39,521 nucleotides of DNA, from the IMG/VR virus record IMGVR_UViG_3300046740_000756, positions 1 to 39,521 of that record; one strand, 5' to 3'. Made by a program: the position numbers and the translations under genes. The notes beneath the pieces are model-generated. The model made no database searches. It saw only the letters and a program-made list of their open reading frames with translations, and was not told where the DNA came from. Below, one piece after another: positions 7,098-37,698 of the stretch. The stretch's first letter is position 1; each line of letters starts with the position of its first letter. This stretch comes from a virus.

Positions 7098-7139
7098 GCC
7101 CCAGCCCCGCCCGGCCGCGCCGGCGCGGGGCTTTGGGGC
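7098..7139 (+). terminator. Strong hairpin after the capsid gene
   Basis: GCCCCAGCCCCGC (7098-7110) pairs with GCGGGGC and TGGGGC (7125-7139) around a two-base bulge, giving 13 base pairs with a 14-base loop. There is no U-tract, and the next start codon lies two bases after the stem. It may be a partial terminator, a processing or stability element, or a structure that reduces translation of the next gene. Confidence 0.55.
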
Positions 7140-7140
7140 C

Positions 7141-7611
7141 ATGGCCGCCTACCTCACCGTCGCCCAGTTCAAGGTGCGGACCATCATGCTCGGCGAGCAC
7201 GTCGACGCGCTGGAGGCCCGCTATCCGGGCTTCCTCGACGCGAAGCTGGGCGAAGAGTCGGCCTGGCTGAATGCCCGCCTCTTCAAGCGCTACGCGGTGC
7301 CCTTCAAGGACCCGACCCCGGAGACCGTGCTCCGCTGGCTGGTGGCGATCGTCACCCTCTGGGCCTTCAAGAAACGCGGATTCGACGCCATCGCGCCCGA
7401 GGGCTTGCAGCTGCAGAAGGACAGCGACGACGCGCGCGCCGAGGCGAAGGAGGCGGCGGACTCGGTCGACGGCTTCTTCGACCTGCCGCCCCGGCAAGAC
7501 CTGGAAGGTGCCTCCGGCATCTCGCGCGGCGGTCCGCTCGGCTACTCGGAGCAGAGCCCGTACACCTTCGTGGACAAGCAGGCCGAGGCGCTCGAGGGCG
7601 GGAGCGGATGA
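7141..7611 (+). CDS. Head-tail connector, Mu gp36-like (DUF1320)
   Basis: The 156-residue protein fits the DUF1320 connector family: an N-terminal YLTVAQFKVR segment, then repeated helices with NARLFKRYAVPF and ETVLRWLVAIVTLWAF. In Mu-like phages such a protein links portal and tail. The C-terminal third is polar and ends in LGYSEQSPYTF before a loose tail. The ATG lies immediately after the GC-rich hairpin at 7098-7139. The stop overlaps the next start as ATGA. Confidence 0.75.
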   Translation: MAAYLTVAQFKVRTIMLGEHVDALEARYPGFLDAKLGEESAWLNARLFKRYAVPFKDPTPETVLRWLVAIVTLWAFKKRGFDAIAPEGLQLQKDSDDARAEAKEAADSVDGFFDLPPRQDLEGASGISRGGPLGYSEQSPYTFVDKQAEALEGGSG

Positions 7612-24317: not shown

Positions 24318-24532
24318 GACGCCCGGCGCCGGATGGCGGCGACGCGCTCCCGATTGTCGGCCAGGCACCCCGCGCAGCACGACCGGCCCGGGACGACAGG
24401 ATCCCCGCACAGGCAATTACCTCGCGCCTTCGCTTCTGCGCGGGCGCGGATTACGTTGGCGGCGCAACGTGAGATGCAGCGTTGGCAGCATCGTCTCCCG
24501 GGCTTTGATGGGCGTCCGCAAAAGCACTTCAT
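24314..24532 (-). CDS. Duplicated Cys-motif mini-protein
   Basis: This 72-residue product contains two copies of the same metal-binding pattern, CxCG-x-P-x3-PGR-x-CC-x2-C, at Cys3/5/15/16/19 and Cys40/42/52/53/56, separated by an Arg-rich helix. The identical spacing shows an internal duplication. It should bind two zinc ions and probably nucleic acid. Its start overlaps the integrase stop (ATGA) and its stop overlaps the next gene's start (ATGA). It may be a recombination directionality or regulatory factor, by position only. Confidence 0.65.
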   Translation of the reverse strand: MKCFCGRPSKPGRRCCQRCISRCAANVIRARAEAKARGNCLCGDPVVPGRSCCAGCLADNRERVAAIRRRAS

Positions 24533-25674
24533 GAGGCCACCCCCTTCCGCGTCCTCGCCGGCTCCGGCTTCCCACCGTCGATCGCCTGGAGCACCCCGAA
24601 GCGTCCACCGCGCTCGGTCTCCTCGGCGGCCCGCCGGACGGCGCTGTCGGCCAGGTGGGCGTAGCGCTCGGTCACTGTGATGGAGCTGTGCCCCAGCAGC
24701 CCGCGCACCTCCTCCAGGCTCCACCGGCGGCCCCACAACCCCGAGACCAGGCTGGCGGCGCAGGTGTGGCGGAAGCTGTGCCAGGTGACCGGGACCTCAC
24801 CCGCGCCGCGCGCGATGCCAGCGGCCGCGAGGTAGGCGGGGAGGGGATCGACCGGCCTCGGCGTGCCCTTGCCGCCGCCGGGGAGCTCGGGGCGCTCGGT
24901 CCTATGCAAGTGCTTGCCGGGCTGGCGCCGCGCGCCCGTGGGGCCCGGGAAGACCAGCTTGTGCGGGTTGCTCTTGCAGTAGGCCGGCAGGAGCGCGAGC
25001 CAGGTCCGGAGCGCCTCCAGCACCAGGCCGAAGAGCGGGACGCGGCGGATCTTGCTCTTCGCCCCCCGGGTGTTCTTCGGGCCCCTGGTGGCCGAGCCGC
25101 GCCGGATGGTGATCTCGGGGTGGCGCCCTTCCAGCCGCACGTCGTCCAGCCGCAGGTTGAACATCTCGCCTTCGCGGATGCCGGTGCCGATCGCGAAGCC
25201 CATCCACAGCCGATCGCGCGACGGGATCGCCTCGCAGGCCTGGAAGATGGCGCGGACGAGGTTCAACGCGTTCTGCACCGACTGCCTCGCGAGGCGCTCG
25301 CCCCGGTGGCGCCCCGCTCGAGCGCGCTTCCGGTCGACGATGGCGAGCCAGTCCCGCACGTCGCGCCGGCGCACCGCGGCCAGGGGCAGGGCGGCCAGCG
25401 CAGTGCCCTCCACGTGGGCATGCCAGATCGAGCGGCCGACCTCGGCGTACCCCTCGCGCTCCCGGCGCTCGAGGACGTGCGCCCCCCAGGCGGCCACGGT
25501 GAGCGCGCGGCTCATGTCGGGCGTGTACGCCGTGCGCGCGTGCTCCAGCGCCGCCGCCGCGGCCTCCGGCGTGGGGTGGACCCCAAGGGAGACCCGGCCC
25601 GCCGGCGTGCGCAGGCGCGCCCGGTGGCCCTTGCCGTGCGGGCTGACGTTCCCGGTGCCTCTCGCGCGTGTCAT
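24529..25674 (-). CDS. int: Tyrosine integrase
   Basis: The 381-residue site-specific recombinase should join attP to a host tRNA-Thr gene. It has an AP2-like N-terminal arm-binding region (about 10-55), a SAM-like core-binding domain (about 57-145) and a catalytic domain with Arg167 (GTGIREGE), a basic strand with Lys near 206-208, His299 and Arg302 (WHSFRHT), His329 (LLGH) and the nucleophile Tyr338 (TERYAH). The linker between core-binding and catalytic domains seems shortened: NLVRAIFQ runs straight into ACEAIPSRDRLW, where relatives usually have about 30 more residues. All catalytic residues are present. The gene is in one operon with recT. Confidence 0.93.
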   Translation of the reverse strand: MTRARGTGNVSPHGKGHRARLRTPAGRVSLGVHPTPEAAAAALEHARTAYTPDMSRALTVAAWGAHVLERREREGYAEVGRSIWHAHVEGTALAALPLAAVRRRDVRDWLAIVDRKRARAGRHRGERLARQSVQNALNLVRAIFQACEAIPSRDRLWMGFAIGTGIREGEMFNLRLDDVRLEGRHPEITIRRGSATRGPKNTRGAKSKIRRVPLFGLVLEALRTWLALLPAYCKSNPHKLVFPGPTGARRQPGKHLHRTERPELPGGGKGTPRPVDPLPAYLAAAGIARGAGEVPVTWHSFRHTCAASLVSGLWGRRWSLEEVRGLLGHSSITVTERYAHLADSAVRRAAEETERGGRFGVLQAIDGGKPEPARTRKGVAS

Positions 25675-28525: not shown

Positions 28526-29155
28526 CTAGGACCGTTTCTGTCCGCGCAGGACGCTGGCCGGTCTGATTTTGCTTGCGCGCTCGCCGACTTCCCTCTCGAG
28601 GTCCCTCGCGTCGTTCTCGGTGGTCGCGGCGATGCGGGCCTCGAGCGGAGCCCACCGTTTCCAGAAATCTGCCAACTCGATCACGAGCTGCGCCTCGGCG
28701 CGCGTCACCTGCACCGTCACCGGCCACATCCCCACGGCTTGCACGGCGAACCGCGGCGCCAGGCGCTCCTCGATCACTGACTGCGCCGCATCATCCCATC
28801 CCGGCAGATCCGAGTAGGAGCGTGGCCGCGGGGCGCCAGCCAGCAGTTCCTCGTAGGTCTGCCCGGAGAGCTTCGCGACGGCGTGCGCGACTTTCACGCC
28901 GATCGACCCCTCCCCCAGGGCGCTCGAGACCGTCTGCTGCGTCACGCCGAGAAGCCGCGCTAGTTCGGTCTGCGGCTGGTGCTTCTGGTCGAGCAAGCGC
29001 AGCGCCGCGCGCACACGATCCCGCTCCACCGGCTTGAGGGACTTCGCGCTGACCGACACCTCTTCGAGGCTAGGAGGAGCGGCTACGTCTCCGACTGTAT
29101 CGGCCTCGACGGGAGGGCTTGACAGTCTACTTTTACGCTTGTATACGTTCTGCAT
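28526..29155 (-). CDS. HTH repressor (CI-like role)
   Basis: The product, up to 209 residues, has a HTH of the Cro/CI type at about 45-105, with recognition segment GVTQQTVSSAL, and a C-terminal domain (about 115-200) unlike the S24/LexA peptidase. RecA-driven self-cleavage is therefore not expected. It is divergent from a Cro-like gene with an almost identical recognition helix, and an ImmA-like gene follows. These features fit the lysogeny repressor. The start is uncertain: the ATG at 29155 overlaps the opposing ATG and its first 12 codons lie in the opposing promoter, so an internal GTG near residue 33 is possible. Confidence 0.75.
   Translation of the reverse strand: MQNVYKRKSRLSSPPVEADTVGDVAAPPSLEEVSVSAKSLKPVERDRVRAALRLLDQKHQPQTELARLLGVTQQTVSSALGEGSIGVKVAHAVAKLSGQTYEELLAGAPRPRSYSDLPGWDDAAQSVIEERLAPRFAVQAVGMWPVTVQVTRAEAQLVIELADFWKRWAPLEARIAATTENDARDLEREVGERASKIRPASVLRGQKRS
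29119..29147 (+). promoter_or_regulatory. Cro-side promoter (leaderless)
   Basis: TTGACA (29119-29124), a 17-base spacer and TATACG (29142-29147) are followed by six bases and the ATG at 29154. Transcription would begin at the ATG. It contains operator O2 and matches the leftward promoter at 28005-28033 in layout and sequence. Confidence 0.75.
29127..29144. promoter_or_regulatory. Operator O2
   Basis: CTAC-TTTTACGCTT-GTAT. It lies between -35 and -10 of the Cro-side promoter and overlaps the 5' end of the longest repressor frame. Bound repressor would block the promoter directly. Confidence 0.65.
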
Positions 29156-29453
29156 GGCGGACGCTCAGACTCTGATGGCGAGGGAAGCCCTCCGGGGGTG
29201 GTTCAGGACCTCGGGCGCTTCACAGGCCGCGCTTGCCGAGGCTCTGGGCGTCACCCAGCAGACGATCTCGTCGCTCCTGAAAGACAGGGCGCCGAGCGAA
29301 GAGCTGTCGAAGGTGATCGAGGCGGCCACGGGGATCTCGTGGAAGGGGTGGTTCACCGCCGAGGAAATGGAGGCGCGCGCAACCCGGATCGCCCGGGCGC
29401 GAGAGCTGCGCGCCTCGCTCCGGCGATCCGGCCGACCGCGCCTGTCCCCCTGA
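29154..29453 (+). CDS. Cro-like HTH protein
   Basis: The 99-residue product has a HTH at about 17-60 with recognition segment GVTQQTISSLL, one or two residues different from the repressor's GVTQQTVSSAL. A Trp-rich turn (GISWKGWF) and an Arg-rich C-terminal helix follow. It is divergent from the repressor, with the two ATGs overlapping in CATG. It lacks a ribosome site, consistent with a leaderless mRNA. It should compete for the same operators and favour lytic growth. Confidence 0.8.
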   Translation: MADAQTLMAREALRGWFRTSGASQAALAEALGVTQQTISSLLKDRAPSEELSKVIEAATGISWKGWFTAEEMEARATRIARARELRASLRRSGRPRLSP

Positions 29454-32211: not shown

Positions 32212-32213
32212 TC

Positions 32214-32534
32214 CTACCCCGCCGCCAGCTCCTCGACGGCGTGCTCCGCCTCGCGCAGGCGCAGCATCACGTCGACCGCGCCATGCACGATGTCCGCCCG
32301 CGCCCCCTCGCGGGTGTGCAGCGGGTCGGGGTTGGTCTGGTCGATCGCCACCGTCAACAGGTCTTCCAGGTGCCGCCGCGCCTCCGCCAAGGCGTCCAGC
32401 GCCTCGGAGCGCATCGCCAGCCGCGCGATGGCGCTGGGGCGCGCAGGCGGCTCCCCGGGCCTCAAGGTGGACGGCGGGTCGCTGGACGCAGGGGTGCCTT
32501 TCCCGCGCGCGGCGGGCTCGCTTACTCTAGGCAT
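32214..32534 (-). CDS. Cassette A helical protein
   Basis: The 106-residue product has a disordered Pro/Ser/Gly-rich start and a long helical C-terminal half. About a third of the aligned positions in that half match the cassette B protein at 33966-34292: EALDALAEARRHLEDLL against EALDRLADARRQLDDLL, and LREAEHAVEEL against VRQAEHSIEAG. AAGGAG gives a good ribosome site. It is divergent from the RHH gene at 32629. It probably dimerises or binds the RHH protein. The function is unknown. Confidence 0.65.
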   Translation of the reverse strand: MPRVSEPAARGKGTPASSDPPSTLRPGEPPARPSAIARLAMRSEALDALAEARRHLEDLLTVAIDQTNPDPLHTREGARADIVHGAVDVMLRLREAEHAVEELAAG

Positions 32535-32628
32535 GGCGGTCTCCTTGGTGGAGGTCGTGCGCAGGGCCCGCGGGCAGAATCGACCGCGCCCCACACTTTC
32601 TGTCTACAACAACTCAAGTGCGCGTGCT
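32535..32628. promoter_or_regulatory. Cassette A divergent control region
   Basis: The 94-bp gap between the helical and RHH genes shares with cassette B (97 bp) a block of CACTTT, a GT(C/G)TAC and an identical GCGCGTGCTATG at the RHH start. No Shine-Dalgarno precedes that ATG. It is a likely operator for the RHH protein. Confidence 0.55.
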
Positions 32629-32832
32629 ATGACCAAATCGAAGACGGGCGCGAAAATGGGACGCCCGAAGGGGAGCGCGGAGGATCTCGGGAAGCCGTTT
32701 TCCGCCCGTCTCCCGGTCGCCCTCGCGGCGGCAGTGGACGAGGCAGCGGAAGAGGAAGGGATCGGGCGCGGCGAGATGCTGCGCGAGATCGTGCGGGACT
32801 GGTACGCCCGCAGGATGAAAGCGAAGCGGTAG
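32629..32832 (+). CDS. Cassette A RHH regulator
   Basis: The 67-residue product has a basic arm KTGAKMGRPKG, one beta strand (PFSARLP, about 23-29) and two helices (AAVDEAAEEEGIGRGEMLREIVRDWY), the ribbon-helix-helix fold of MetJ/Arc/CopG. Dimers of such proteins bind DNA with the paired strands. It is paralogous to the protein at 34390-34596, including the arm GAKMGRP. It should repress the shared divergent region. The start is set by the GCGCGTGCTATG block conserved with cassette B. Confidence 0.75.
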   Translation: MTKSKTGAKMGRPKGSAEDLGKPFSARLPVALAAAVDEAAEEEGIGRGEMLREIVRDWYARRMKAKR

Positions 32833-32838
32833 CCCGGG

Positions 32839-32866
32839 GCACCTCGCCCCGGCTGGGGAGAGGTGC
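32839..32866 (+). promoter_or_regulatory. Cassette A leader hairpin hiding a ribosome site
   Basis: GCACCTC (32839-32845) pairs with GAGGTGC (32860-32866), which contains the Shine-Dalgarno of the TTG gene at 32870. Inside, CCCC (32847-32850) pairs with GGGG (32855-32858) around GGCT. The 14-base internal segment and the three-base gap to TTG are the same in cassette B. A competing CCGGGGC/GCCCCGG stem could free the site. Confidence 0.65.
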
Positions 32867-32869
32867 ATC

Positions 32870-33247
32870 TTGAGCGAAGCGAACGGGAACGGCATCGCGA
32901 GCGCGGTGGAGGTGGTGCGCGGGCTGGTGGAGGAGCGCGATCGTCTTGCCGCGCGCGTGGCCGAGATCGACACCACCCTGAGTACCCTGCGCGGCGCGCT
33001 CGGCTCCCCAGCGCGGACGGTGGCGAGCGGCGACCTCCACCCCGACAGGATTCCGGCTCGGGTGATGGCGCTGATGGCGGACGGGCAGGAGCGCAGCCCG
33101 GGCGACGTGGCGGCGGCGCTCGGGATCGGGTGCCTTCCGGCTGGCGTGGCGATGCGCCGACTGATGCTGAAGGGGCGACTCTCCCACCCGCGGCGCGCCG
33201 TCTATGCGAGCGTCGCGAAGCCGGCGGCGGGAGCGCTCGACTCATGA
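32870..33247 (+). CDS. Coiled-coil plus winged-helix-like protein
   Basis: The 125-residue product has an N-terminal coiled coil (about 10-45) and a C-terminal domain resembling a winged helix (RIPARVMALMADGQERSPGDVAAAL, then MRRLMLKGRLSHPRRAVYAS). This suggests a small DNA-binding regulator. The TTG start is preceded by GGGGAGAGGTG, which is locked in the leader hairpin. The stop overlaps the next start as ATGA. Confidence 0.6.
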   Translation: MSEANGNGIASAVEVVRGLVEERDRLAARVAEIDTTLSTLRGALGSPARTVASGDLHPDRIPARVMALMADGQERSPGDVAAALGIGCLPAGVAMRRLMLKGRLSHPRRAVYASVAKPAAGALDS

Positions 33248-33576
33248 GGGCCGCCATCCTCGAAGGCCTCCTCACCCGCTACCGCGGCCCGCTGCGCGCC
33301 GTGGGCGACGTGGTGCGGGGGTACATCGCCGCCGCGTCCCTGCGCACCGTGGTGGAGGGCTACCTCGCGCAGCAGCGCCTGGACGTCTACCCGCTCGATC
33401 AGCTGTTCGTGACGCTGGACCTGCTGGGCGCGGACCTGGCTCAGCCCGGGGCGCTGGGCCTCGGCGCGCGCCTGGCGTGCTCCACCTACGAGCTGGTGCA
33501 GCTGCGGCACCGGGCGCAGGACCGCCGCGCGGAGTCGTGCGGCGTGGAGCTCGGCGGCAACGGGGCGGAGGCGTAG
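33244..33576 (+). CDS. Hypothetical early protein
   Basis: The 110-residue product is predominantly helical (LEGLLTRYRGPLRAVGDVVRGY at the start), with a Leu-rich centre and a charged C-terminus. ATG start in an ATGA overlap. No family is recognised. Confidence 0.5.
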   Translation: MRAAILEGLLTRYRGPLRAVGDVVRGYIAAASLRTVVEGYLAQQRLDVYPLDQLFVTLDLLGADLAQPGALGLGARLACSTYELVQLRHRAQDRRAESCGVELGGNGAEA

Positions 33577-33579
33577 CCC

Positions 33580-33960
33580 GTGGGCACCCTGTCCCCCATG
33601 CCGCCCCTGTCCGCGCTGGAACTGCGCGCCGTGCAGGACGCGGTCACCTACGCCGAGGGCTACATCCTCGGCGCGGGCGGGGCGCTGCCTGGCCCCGCGT
33701 CGGCGCTGTCGTCGCTGCCCCTGTGCCCCTGCGAGCGCATGGCCCCGCCGGGCTACGCGGCGCGCCCGGGGCGGTGGACGAGCTGGACGGCGCACCGGGA
33801 CGCCGAGGCGGTCGACCCCTGCCTGGAGCCCGCGCGCCGGGTGCAGGGCACCACGGACCGCCTGCGCTGCCTCGCTGGGCACGAGTACCGCGGGGTGGCC
33901 CTCGAGCTGGTGGACGCCGCTGGTGCTGAGGCGGCTGCGCGCCGCAGGGGGCTGCGGTGA
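33580..33960 (+). CDS. Hypothetical early protein with Cys residues
   Basis: The 126-residue product starts with GTG three bases after the previous stop (an ATG at 33598 is an alternative). It has helices at the start, a Pro/Gly-rich Cys-containing middle (LPLCPCERM) and a C-terminal segment LRCLAGHEYRGVALELVDAAG. No family is recognised. It converges with the cassette B helical gene. Confidence 0.45.
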   Translation: MGTLSPMPPLSALELRAVQDAVTYAEGYILGAGGALPGPASALSSLPLCPCERMAPPGYAARPGRWTSWTAHRDAEAVDPCLEPARRVQGTTDRLRCLAGHEYRGVALELVDAAGAEAAARRRGLR

Positions 33961-33965
33961 CCGCC

Positions 33966-34292
33966 CTACCGCTCCAGCCCAGCCTCGATGCTGTGCTCAG
34001 CCTGTCGCACCTGCTGCAGCAGCTCGACGGCACGCGCGCGCAGCCGCTCGTCCGCGCCCGTCGTGTCGAACATGGGCCGCTCGCTGACCGCGTCCAGCGC
34101 CACCTCCAGCAGATCGTCCAGCTGGCGCCGCGCATCGGCGAGCCTGTCCAGTGCTTCTTGGAGGCACGCCGCGACGCTGAACGCCGCGCGCGGGGGAACG
34201 CTGGGCGCGCCGGGCAGGATGGTCTCTCGCTCGCCGCGGGCGTCGGGCGGATCTCGGCGCTGCCCCGCGAGGGGGCTGATACGCTCGTTCAT
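33966..34292 (-). CDS. Cassette B helical protein
   Basis: The 108-residue product has a polar, Pro-rich start and a helical C-terminal half homologous to the cassette A protein at 32214-32534. The matches include ALD-x-LA-x-ARR-x-L-x-DLL, a central P and the final VRQAEH block. GAGGAG precedes the ATG. It is divergent from the RHH gene at 34390. The cassette copies keep gene order, gap length and downstream hairpin. Confidence 0.65.
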   Translation of the reverse strand: MNERISPLAGQRRDPPDARGERETILPGAPSVPPRAAFSVAACLQEALDRLADARRQLDDLLEVALDAVSERPMFDTTGADERLRARAVELLQQVRQAEHSIEAGLER

Positions 34293-34389
34293 GGCTCGAT
34301 CTCCTCGTCTGTAGGTGGTCGGGTCGGCGCCCTCAAGTCCTCAGCTTGGGGGCGCACTTTTGGTGTACCATATGTCCAAAGCGCGTGCT
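34293..34389. promoter_or_regulatory. Cassette B divergent control region
   Basis: The 97-bp gap matches that of cassette A near the RHH gene: GCACTTTTGGTGTAC, then the identical GCGCGTGCTATG. An ATG at 34372 is in frame but is not conserved in cassette A. Confidence 0.55.
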
Positions 34390-34596
34390 ATGAAGAAGAA
34401 GCCCGGGGCGAAAATGGGTCGTCCCCGGGGCAGGTCCTACCCGCACCTCATGACGACGCGGGTGGACGACGACTTGAAGGAGAAGATCGACGGCATCGCG
34501 GAGACCGAGGGCCTCGGTCCGAGCGAGGTGGTGCGCCTGCTCTTGGAGCTTGGCGTGGGCGCGTGGAAGCGCGCGGAGAAGAAGGAAGAGGAGTAG
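34390..34596 (+). CDS. Cassette B RHH regulator
   Basis: The 68-residue product has the arm KKPGAKMGRPRG, a strand (LMTTRVD, about 20-26) and two helices (LKEKIDGIAETEGLGPSEVVRLLLELG), the ribbon-helix-helix fold. It is paralogous to the cassette A regulator, and GCGAAAATGGG is identical at the DNA level in both. The start follows the conserved GCGCGTGCT block; an upstream start at 34372 would add six residues. It ends in a Lys/Glu-rich tail. Confidence 0.75.
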   Translation: MKKKPGAKMGRPRGRSYPHLMTTRVDDDLKEKIDGIAETEGLGPSEVVRLLLELGVGAWKRAEKKEEE

Positions 34597-34602
34597 CCGG
34601 GC

Positions 34603-34630
34603 GCGCCTCTGTGCTGCGGCGCGGAGGTGC
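34603..34630 (+). promoter_or_regulatory. Cassette B leader hairpin hiding a ribosome site
   Basis: GCGCCTC (34603-34609) pairs with GAGGTGC (34624-34630), including one G-U pair. Inside, GTGC (34611-34614) pairs with GCGC (34619-34622), also with one G-U. The geometry is the same as in cassette A although the inner sequence differs completely, so the structure itself appears conserved. The TTG start follows three bases later. Confidence 0.68.
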
Positions 34631-34633
34631 AGC

Positions 34634-34981
34634 TTGAAGCCCCACATTCACGCGAAGAACAGCGCCAAGAAGTACGGCGGCAAGCCCGCCGACTACCAGG
34701 CGATCCACGACGAGATCGACAGCAGCAAGTCGGCGCACGCGAGCATGCGTCACCGCGCCGTCTTTCACTCCGCGTTCGGGATCTACATCATCGAGCGGAT
34801 CTTCGGCACGACCATCACGAACAGCGACGGCAAGACGGTGAGCGTGCGCGACGTCGCCGAGGACCACGTGCTGGAGGATCTCGGCACCATCCCGAGCCTC
34901 GACCGCTGGCTCGACGCGATGGAGTTGCAGAAGTGGATGGGCGGGCCGACCCGCAAGCACAGGTTCGAGCGAATCGACTGA
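34634..34981 (+). CDS. Conserved phage protein (DUF6915-like)
   Basis: The 115-residue product has the opening KPHIHAKNSAKKYGGKPADY, the segment DSSKSAHASMRHRAVFHSAFGIYIIERIFG (about 35-64, as location) and NSDGKTVSVRDVAEDHVLEDLG. I recognise this as a family widespread in phages and bacteria, probably DUF6915, with no known activity. The several histidines could bind a metal. The TTG start follows the cassette B hairpin. Confidence 0.72.
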   Translation: MKPHIHAKNSAKKYGGKPADYQAIHDEIDSSKSAHASMRHRAVFHSAFGIYIIERIFGTTITNSDGKTVSVRDVAEDHVLEDLGTIPSLDRWLDAMELQKWMGGPTRKHRFERID

Positions 34982-34993
34982 CAGGAGAGGACC

Positions 34994-35452
34994 ATGACCG
35001 AGAAGAAGATCAACGCCCCCGAGTACACCGCCCTGGTCAAGAAGATGGAGGCCGCGCGCGCCGAGGTGAAGGAGGCCGGCAAGCGCGCCGTGAAGGCGCT
35101 CTTTGCCGCGTTCTTCGAGGGGCACCCCGATGTGACGGCGATCGGCTGGACGCAGTACACGCCGCACTTCAACGACGGCGAGGCGTGCGAGTTCAGCCTG
35201 TACGAGTTCTACATCTCCACCGCCACCGGCGTGAAGTGGAAGGACGTGGCGCACCTCTACAGCGACGGCGAGGAGGGAAAGCCGCCGATCTTCACCGACG
35301 AGTACGACACCAAGGACAAGAAGCTGAAGGCGGCGCGCGCCCTCGTCGAGCGCTCGGCGGACGAGGACATCTTCGAGGCGGCGTTCGGCGACCACGTCAT
35401 GGTGATCGCCACGCCCAAGGGCTTCCACGTCAGCGAGTACAGCCACGACTGA
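34994..35452 (+). CDS. Hypothetical early protein
   Basis: The 152-residue product has a helical N-terminus (about 8-45) and an alpha/beta body rich in aromatic and acidic residues (IGWTQYTPHFNDGEACEFSLYEFYIS), with a final strand pair. ACAGGAGAGGACC is a strong ribosome site. It resembles uncharacterised phage proteins but I cannot name the family. The stop overlaps the next start as TGATG. Confidence 0.6.
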   Translation: MTEKKINAPEYTALVKKMEAARAEVKEAGKRAVKALFAAFFEGHPDVTAIGWTQYTPHFNDGEACEFSLYEFYISTATGVKWKDVAHLYSDGEEGKPPIFTDEYDTKDKKLKAARALVERSADEDIFEAAFGDHVMVIATPKGFHVSEYSHD

Positions 35453-36462: not shown

Positions 36463-37698
36463 ATGTCTGCACCCCTGCTCTTTGCCCTGATGCACACCTT
36501 CGAGCGGGCCCGCGCCGCCGATCTGCCGGCTCACCACCGGCTGGTGCTCCTGGTGCTCGCCGACTTCGCCGACGACGCCGGGAAGGCCTGGCCCAGCGCG
36601 GCCAGCGTGGCGACCAGGACGGGGCAGAGCCGGAGCACCGTCGAGACCTGCCTGGCCGAGCTCGAGGCCGCTGGCTGGCTGGTGGGCGAGCGGCGGAAGG
36701 CGGGCGCTCGGAACCTGTCCACCGTGTACCTGGTGCACACCGAGGGTCGCCCCGTCGCCCGCGCCCGGACCAGCCGTCATACCCCGCGGGGCGGTGTATC
36801 GGATGCACCGCGGGGCAATGCACGCCCCGCACGCCATGCCCCGCACGCCATGCCGGGCGGCCCATATACCCCGCGGGGCGGTGAACCCCATACCCCGCGG
36901 GGCAGGGTGGATACCCCGCGGGGCGGTGAGGATCCGATCAGGGACCCTCTCAGGGTTGACCCTCCCAGGGAACCGACCAGCACACACACCGCGGGGGCGC
37001 GCGATGGACTTCCGGTGGGTGAGACTCCCACCCCAGCCGGCCCCGATGTCCAACCCGAGTTGTACACCCCGATCCAGGCATCGCCCGCCGCGACGCCAAG
37101 CCCGAGAAACCCGGAACCCCCGCGGCGCGCGCCGGTGCCCGCCGCCGTTCTCCTCGAGGTGGCGGCCAACGGTGTTGACGCCGTGAACGTTGCGAATCAA
37201 GGCAAACCGGAGCGCGACGTCAAGCCGGCGAACATGTCGCCGCCCAGCGCGGCCGCGCCGCCGCGCGCCGCCGAGGAGCCGCCGCAGCCGGTGGTGGAGC
37301 TGGATCCGCCCTGCGACCCGGTGACCTCGCAGGTGCTGGAGGCGCTCGGGAAGTCCCCCGAGATCGCCCGCGGCGGTGGGCGCCGACTGCTGCGCCTCGC
37401 CGAGGGGATCGCTGGCCTGCACATCTCGGTCAACAAGCCGGTGGAGCTGCTGATCCAGGGCATCGACGAGGCGGCGCTCCTGCTCGCCGTCGAGGAGGTG
37501 CCGCGCCCCTGGGATGGCCAGAACGGCGTGGCGAAGCTGGTCTCGAGCTACGCGAAGAACGCCAAGGCCCAGCGCGGGATCAACCTGTCCGGAGCACCAC
37601 CTCGAGGCCGCCCACCACCCCGGCAAGCCACATCGGTGCAGCCCGGCGCCGCCCCCGGCGAGCGCACCTGGAGCGAGAAGAGCGTGGAGGACTTCTGA
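36463..37698 (+). CDS. Replication initiator, lambda O-like
   Basis: The 411-residue product begins with a winged-helix domain (residues about 1-95) with HHRLVLLVLADFADDAGKAWPS, SVATRTGQSRSTVETCLAELEAAGWL and ARNLSTVYLV, the phage initiator / helix-turn-helix 36 type. The linker (about 105-260) is Pro/Arg/Gly-rich, and its DNA holds the iteron array. The C-terminal domain (about 280-375) is helical and would contact the helicase loader encoded next. The plan is that of lambda O, where the origin also lies inside the gene. Confidence 0.85.
   Translation: MSAPLLFALMHTFERARAADLPAHHRLVLLVLADFADDAGKAWPSAASVATRTGQSRSTVETCLAELEAAGWLVGERRKAGARNLSTVYLVHTEGRPVARARTSRHTPRGGVSDAPRGNARPARHAPHAMPGGPYTPRGGEPHTPRGRVDTPRGGEDPIRDPLRVDPPREPTSTHTAGARDGLPVGETPTPAGPDVQPELYTPIQASPAATPSPRNPEPPRRAPVPAAVLLEVAANGVDAVNVANQGKPERDVKPANMSPPSAAAPPRAAEEPPQPVVELDPPCDPVTSQVLEALGKSPEIARGGGRRLLRLAEGIAGLHISVNKPVELLIQGIDEAALLLAVEEVPRPWDGQNGVAKLVSSYAKNAKAQRGINLSGAPPRGRPPPRQATSVQPGAAPGERTWSEKSVEDF
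36779..36928. repeat. Iteron array, candidate replication origin
   Basis: An 18-bp unit, ATACCCCGCGGGGCGGTG, with the self-complementary core CCCCGCGGGG, occurs at 36779, 36866 and 36911, with a close copy at 36890 and a weaker one at 36803. Spacing is 21, 24 or 63 bp. The synonymous positions in ACC-CCG-CGG-GGC do not vary, so conservation is at the DNA level. Location inside an O-like gene supports an origin. Confidence 0.78.
36825..36852. repeat. Perfect 14-bp tandem repeat within the origin
   Basis: CCCCGCACGCCATG occurs twice head to tail (36825-36838, 36839-36852). Fourteen is not a multiple of three, so the two copies are read in different frames and cannot reflect a peptide repeat. 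Confidence 0.8.
36939..36978. repeat. CAGGG repeats flanking the iterons
   Basis: CAGGG followed by ACC occurs three times (starting at 36939, 36951 and 36966), and some copies form small inverted repeats with CCCT. This could be a second protein-binding array at the origin edge. No AT-rich unwinding element is obvious nearby. Confidence 0.5.

Follow-up and report, generated by a model that had tools for sequence, protein, structure and literature searches.

Organization of the locus

The virus record IMGVR_UViG_3300046740_000756 is a temperate tailed phage of 39.5 kb and 71% GC, and the whole stretch of 39,521 nt that was analysed is referred to here as the window. Its rightward early region holds genes for DUF1643 and DUF6915 proteins, an HNH endonuclease, an O-like replication protein and a DnaC-like loader, and within this region, just upstream of the O-like and DnaC-like replication genes, sit two regulatory units (Table 1). 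The layout is common to both: a leftward gene for a helical protein, a control region, a rightward ribbon-helix-helix (RHH) regulator gene, a leader hairpin and a cargo gene with a TTG start. Every feature of this layout that had been given in a preliminary description of the DNA was present at the extent described.

Table 1. Coordinates of the two regulatory units and of neighbouring features in the window
Feature	Coordinates	Strand	Details
Integrase gene	24529-25674	-	
Divergent HTH regulator pair	near 29.1 kb		
Helical gene, copy 1 (P0001, 106 aa)	32214-32534	-	AAGGAG-type ribosome site before ATG; paralogue and frame test
Control region, copy 1 (94 bp)	32535-32628		AT-rich block 32591-32628; candidate dyad TGT-CT-ACA (weak, read from the sequence)
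RHH gene, copy 1 (P0002, 67 aa)	32629-32832	+	RHH_1 35.7 bits, cut-off 20.5
Leader, copy 1	32830-32873	+	Runs from the RHH stop codon to the TTG of the cargo; 3' arm contains the Shine-Dalgarno GAGGTG
Cargo 1a (125 aa)	32870-33247	+	TTG start; no family
Genes after cargo 1a	33244-33576, 33580-33960		
Helical gene, copy 2 (P0003, 108 aa)	33966-34292	-	Paralogue; two-helix hairpin model
Control region, copy 2 (97 bp)	34293-34389		AT-rich block 34352-34389; candidate dyad GGT-GT-ACC
RHH gene, copy 2 (P0004, 68 aa)	34390-34596	+	RelB 23.4 bits, cut-off 22.4; RHH_1 20.4, just under 20.5
Leader, copy 2	34594-34637	+	Of equal length to copy 1 and in its register; pairing covers both the Shine-Dalgarno and the TTG
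Cargo 2a (DUF6915 protein)	34634-34981	+	TTG start
Gene after cargo 2a	34994-35452		Followed by HNH endonuclease and replication genes

Several features elsewhere in the phage were also observed. The divergent HTH regulators (28526-29453), which resemble a cI/Cro-type switch, are mutually paralogous (36% over 70 aa, with LGVTQQTISS in common). Within the O-like initiator gene (36463-37698) lie direct repeats of ~21 bp (36779-36929) built on TACCCCGCGGGGCGGTG with a palindromic core, CCCCGCGGGG; these are candidate origin iterons, and lambda O provides a precedent for origin iterons inside an initiator gene. Downstream of the Mu gpT-like major capsid gene, a very stable hairpin (7101-7141, -29 kcal/mol) abuts a gene at 7141 and is perhaps a terminator or processing site.

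Homology and extent of the units

Direct comparison of the two regions gave one main DNA match, between 32213-32873 and 33965-34637 (59% identity, E 3e-28). This match of ~665 bp is bounded on one side by the stop codon of the helical gene and on the other by the TTG of the cargo gene, and the 60 bases outside each border are at the level of shuffled sequence (0.46 and 0.44). The helical gene, the RHH gene, the AT-rich block and the leader each exceeded all 100 shuffles, and the half of the control region adjoining the helical gene was unremarkable in this comparison. Identity between the copies was 70% for the leader, 68% for the AT-rich block, 56-60% for the genes and 44-46% for the flanks; the best-conserved parts of the unit are thus its two non-coding elements. 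Judged by sequence, the units are old, diverged copies of the same control unit, each heading a different gene set. The unit has been duplicated on this evidence, and its presence twice within one genome suggests that it may be mobile. No third cassette was found within the window. The earlier proposal of a duplicated two-gene unit that stands ahead of unrelated genes, equipped with a control region and a leader of its own, is supported, and the homology ends exactly at the unit borders.

The helical proteins

P0001 and P0003 share 37% identity over 100 aa (E 2e-16), in agreement with the paralogy at roughly a third identity reported previously. We examined their coding status with a frame test in which the null placed the same substitutions at random and in which the alignment was built on the helical and RHH frames and is thus slightly biased toward them: the leftward helical frame kept amino-acid similarity (z 5.5, 0/2000), with a highest z of 2.6 among the other five frames, and the RHH frame was also conserved (z 3.9 against the random-placement null). 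The view that both frames are coding therefore stands. Long rightward ORFs overlapping the units were attributed to GC content and rejected, the best score being that of the leftward frame. For the helical gene NG86 gave dN close to dS, a comparison in which dS is unreliable because of the high GC and the divergence. The preliminary description had also made a two-gene unit depend on conservation of the helical frame and on the RHH gene being accompanied by its partner; in a comparison of the two internal copies, both held.

In the model of the copy 2 protein (mean pLDDT 73) the first third is disordered and rich in proline, and a two-helix hairpin follows (helices 34-71 and 78-107). The helical portion of these proteins is acidic (net -5 to -6). 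Profile searches detected no RHH match in the helical proteins, and no Pfam, NCBIfam or PADLOC family was assigned to them. One explanation is that the helical gene has an independent, moron-like accessory function, for example in exclusion or host takeover, and shares no more than the RHH-controlled region with its neighbour. Past ~29.1 kb in the rightward early region, no leftward genes other than the two helical genes were recognised, each of the two has a good ribosome site (GGAG-type, ahead of ATG), and the helical model has no PDB or BFVD match at E <= 0.001, all of which would suit an independent role. However, the gene has stayed next to the RHH gene in each copy although the proteins have diverged by ~63%, and the pairing of an acidic helical domain with a basic-armed regulator is suggestive of an interaction. 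We consider an independent function possible, if on the unlikely side.

The RHH proteins and their control regions

Both regulators scored above a curated profile cut-off for RHH membership, P0002 through RHH_1 and P0004 through RelB, which accords with their earlier description as local regulators, and RHH_1 matches in the window are confined to these two places. The proteins are 38% identical over 53 aa (E 1e-8) and their GAKMGRP arms are exactly the same, confirming paralogues with identical arms. This basic arm may be of the AT-hook kind, as suggested by its GRP core. In the RHH model (mean pLDDT 75) helices occupy positions 27-40 and 44-67, and the strand expected at 20-25 is unresolved in this monomer model. 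There is no Shine-Dalgarno sequence before either RHH start.

RHH folds are also used in DNA-organising, partition and replication roles, and the two proteins could be accessories of the omega, ParG or MatP kind instead of operon repressors. MatP and CdbA are among their structural matches and the units lie just upstream of the replication genes, but no ParA-type partner was seen in the region examined and the control regions have no arrays of repeated sites. We regard such a role as improbable.

The AT-rich block of ~38 bp forms the RHH-proximal half of each control region and ranks, by AT content, in the top ~1% of 38-bp windows in this 71% GC genome. It contains GCGCGTGCTATG, which is exact at both RHH starts, as the preliminary description had it, and is found nowhere else in the window. 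Small dyads, TGT-CT-ACA in copy 1 and GGT-GT-ACC in copy 2, are in register between the copies and, with arms of 3 bp, are a weak candidate for a half-site pair and no more. No long operator dyad is common to the two control regions, and no sigma-70-like promoter consensus was found. A rightward-pointing, terminator-like hairpin (34327-34355) lies just before the AT-rich block of copy 2, with no clear counterpart in copy 1, and could protect the promoter of RHH2 against transcription reading through from upstream.

The leader hairpins

Both leaders are 44 nt long, align without gaps and have identical spacing from the RHH stop codon. The hairpins that had been described ahead of the TTG-start genes were recovered in both, with folding energies of -24.1 kcal/mol (z -2.1) for copy 1 and -30.6 kcal/mol (z -3.6) for copy 2. 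The two folds share 11 base pairs at equivalent positions, two compensatory changes among them, and 100% of the cells are paired; the pairing was lost when the 3' arm was slid; covariation, which here draws on two sequences only, did not go beyond shuffles (131/500). Among 31 phage gene starts checked, Shine-Dalgarno pairing of at least 0.9 was found at two, which are the two cargo starts (0.91 and 1.0); the start codon of leader 1 is partly paired (0.32). The 5' arm of the hairpin, which lies opposite the paired downstream Shine-Dalgarno sequence, starts 3-6 nt past the RHH stop codon, within reach of an upstream terminating ribosome. A covariance model located no third leader in the window (next best E ~0.14, antisense self-hits aside).

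This arrangement suggests a probable coupling of translation between the RHH gene and the first cargo gene behind it. Strong Shine-Dalgarno-sequestering hairpins can serve as switches or barriers as well as in coupling, and the leader might instead be a switch controlled by a protein or RNase, or a plain barrier to read-through translation. Folding with the Shine-Dalgarno sequence paired would also fit these, and a barrier would silence the cargo on a long early transcript. On the other hand, a hairpin that begins right at the RHH stop with the same spacing in both copies suits a terminating ribosome, and we find a switch or barrier doubtful.

Cargo genes and distribution

The claim that the cargo genes are unrelated also held, no homology being found between those behind the two units. 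Cargo 1a has no family match; inspected by eye, it appears to consist of a coiled-coil followed by a winged-helix-like segment (RIPARVMALMADGQERSPGDVAAALGI...). Because it looks like a DNA-binding protein, a second regulator may adjoin RHH1 downstream. In a viral contig of 195 kb (L010), a DUF6915 gene and a gene of the 34994-35452 type are also adjacent, in reverse order; the product of the latter gene in the window is matched by phrog_9564 and phrog_10375.

At the sensitivity of the tools used, homologues of the helical or RHH proteins were detected neither in IMG/VR (queried with the individual proteins and with an alignment of the RHH pair) nor in GenBank phages or plasmids (tblastn), and helical homologues were not detected in GTDB representative genomes (helical alignment only); those scans that used a single sequence reach close relatives only. 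Three weak phage matches at E >= 5 were set aside as chance. Searches for relatives of the phage itself returned a single 4-kb contig among viral contigs (replication and capsid genes), none in GTDB genomes (capsid alignment) and none among GenBank phages in near and distant DNA comparison. These searches did not tie the phage to a host.

DUF6915, by contrast with the proteins of the unit, is widespread, with 157 confirmed candidates in viral contigs. We sampled the neighbourhoods of 80 loci from viral contigs and checked 49 DUF6915 records. A helical homologue occurred in none of these 49 (with the window as positive control), and an RHH homologue in none of 50, comprising the 49 and the capsid-relative contig, in a search run without a positive control. 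RHH_1 genes were present in 8/49 DUF6915 records; in the three that were placed, ~1.6-1.8 kb separated them from the DUF6915 gene. These genes were dropped as relatives on account of this distance and of the missing GRP arm in the one that was read (L034). Because the helical gene is carried by 0/49 records, the unit is an addition ahead of a common phage gene and not a part of that gene.

RHH proteins are frequent as antitoxins, and the preliminary description had raised the possibility of a toxin-antitoxin-like pair, in which the RHH protein would be the antitoxin and the helical or coupled cargo protein the toxin. The analysis did not support this possibility. The RHH proteins have weak similarity to the RelB, VapB and MazE antitoxins, but the RelB/DinJ profile gave a score of 21, its cut-off being 45.65, and no toxin family was identified in the helical and cargo proteins with Pfam, PADLOC or NCBIfam. 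Moreover, the helical partner is divergent and not co-operonic, the cargo that follows one RHH gene is unrelated to that following the other, and DUF6915 occurs without a helical partner in the 49 other viral records. We therefore judge a toxin-antitoxin pair very improbable.

Proposed working of the units

Our preferred reading, to which we assign a probability of about 0.55, is that each unit serves as an immI-like head through which an accessory operon of the phage is regulated, in which the RHH protein would regulate its own expression and the cargo would be coupled to it. This builds on the homology of the units, their coding frames, the RHH fold class, the conserved block and the leader fold; what we infer beyond these is binding to DNA, regulation by the RHH protein of its own gene, the coupling, and whatever part the helical protein may play. 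An RHH dimer would bind the AT-rich block beside its own start through its strand pair and through the basic GAKMGRP arm in the minor groove, and would thereby set both the rightward promoter and that of the divergent helical gene. Autoregulation via this block is the simplest reading because the RHH gene is first in the operon and no other regulator is encoded closer to the two divergent promoters.

The RHH gene has no Shine-Dalgarno sequence, and its mRNA would probably have a short 5' untranslated region. A ribosome terminating on the RHH gene should open the hairpin, because the 5' arm falls within its footprint, and the opened hairpin would expose the ribosome site of the cargo, such that cargo output may follow RHH output from one promoter for both. 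The cargo would be silent on read-through early mRNA unless the RHH gene were translated. The acidic two-helix protein, encoded on the opposite strand and presumably co-regulated, may be an antagonist or a co-factor of the RHH protein, and the two diverged copies would drive two different gene sets. A broader interpretation is that the units represent a portable family of operon heads, consisting of an RHH gene, a divergent helical tuner and a coupling leader, which phages would insert into existing operons so as to place any cargo under separate control; we hold this extension to be rather unlikely.

If the working of the operon head inferred here is true, it would give a phage a compact, self-contained device for the separate control of unrelated genes within a single early operon, in which autoregulation of transcription is combined with coupling of translation. 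The diverged pair in one genome also constitutes a natural experiment on which parts have to be kept (the AT-rich block, the RHH arm and the leader pairing) and on whether the two regulators are insulated against one another.

Comparison with known systems

Each part of the unit is of a known kind. No instance of the whole combination, present in duplicate within a single early operon, came up in the collections and literature searched. The immI region of phage P22 has a divergent layout, with Arc and Mnt both being RHH proteins. Its genes mnt and arc control ant and lie within an operon yet are separately expressed, with little expression from the operon itself (PMC8022706). The units described here resemble immI in having divergent control genes and a small RHH gene heading a short operon inside a larger phage operon. 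They differ in that the divergent gene encodes a two-helix protein with no recognisable RHH, whereas Mnt is an RHH repressor; in that no antirepressor (Ant) lies downstream, the cargo being a protein of no family (1a) or a DUF6915 protein (2a); and in that there are two copies, with a Shine-Dalgarno hairpin linking the RHH gene to the cargo.

Among the MetJ/Arc/CopG superfamily of RHH proteins, which includes CopG, RelB and VapB, the likeness extends to the RHH_1 and RelB Pfam matches and to the two predicted helices after the expected strand position, but the proteins of the units have a basic GAKMGRP arm, no toxin partner and a divergent partner gene. For the leader, one parallel is the translational-coupling hairpin of the L11-L1 operon. 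A further one is the coat-replicase junction of MS2, in which translational coupling through a hairpin is established (PMC9894550). As in both of these systems, the downstream ribosome site is hidden in a hairpin beside an upstream translated region; here, unlike there, the hairpin belongs to a regulatory cassette of a DNA phage and stands in two homologous copies before unrelated genes.
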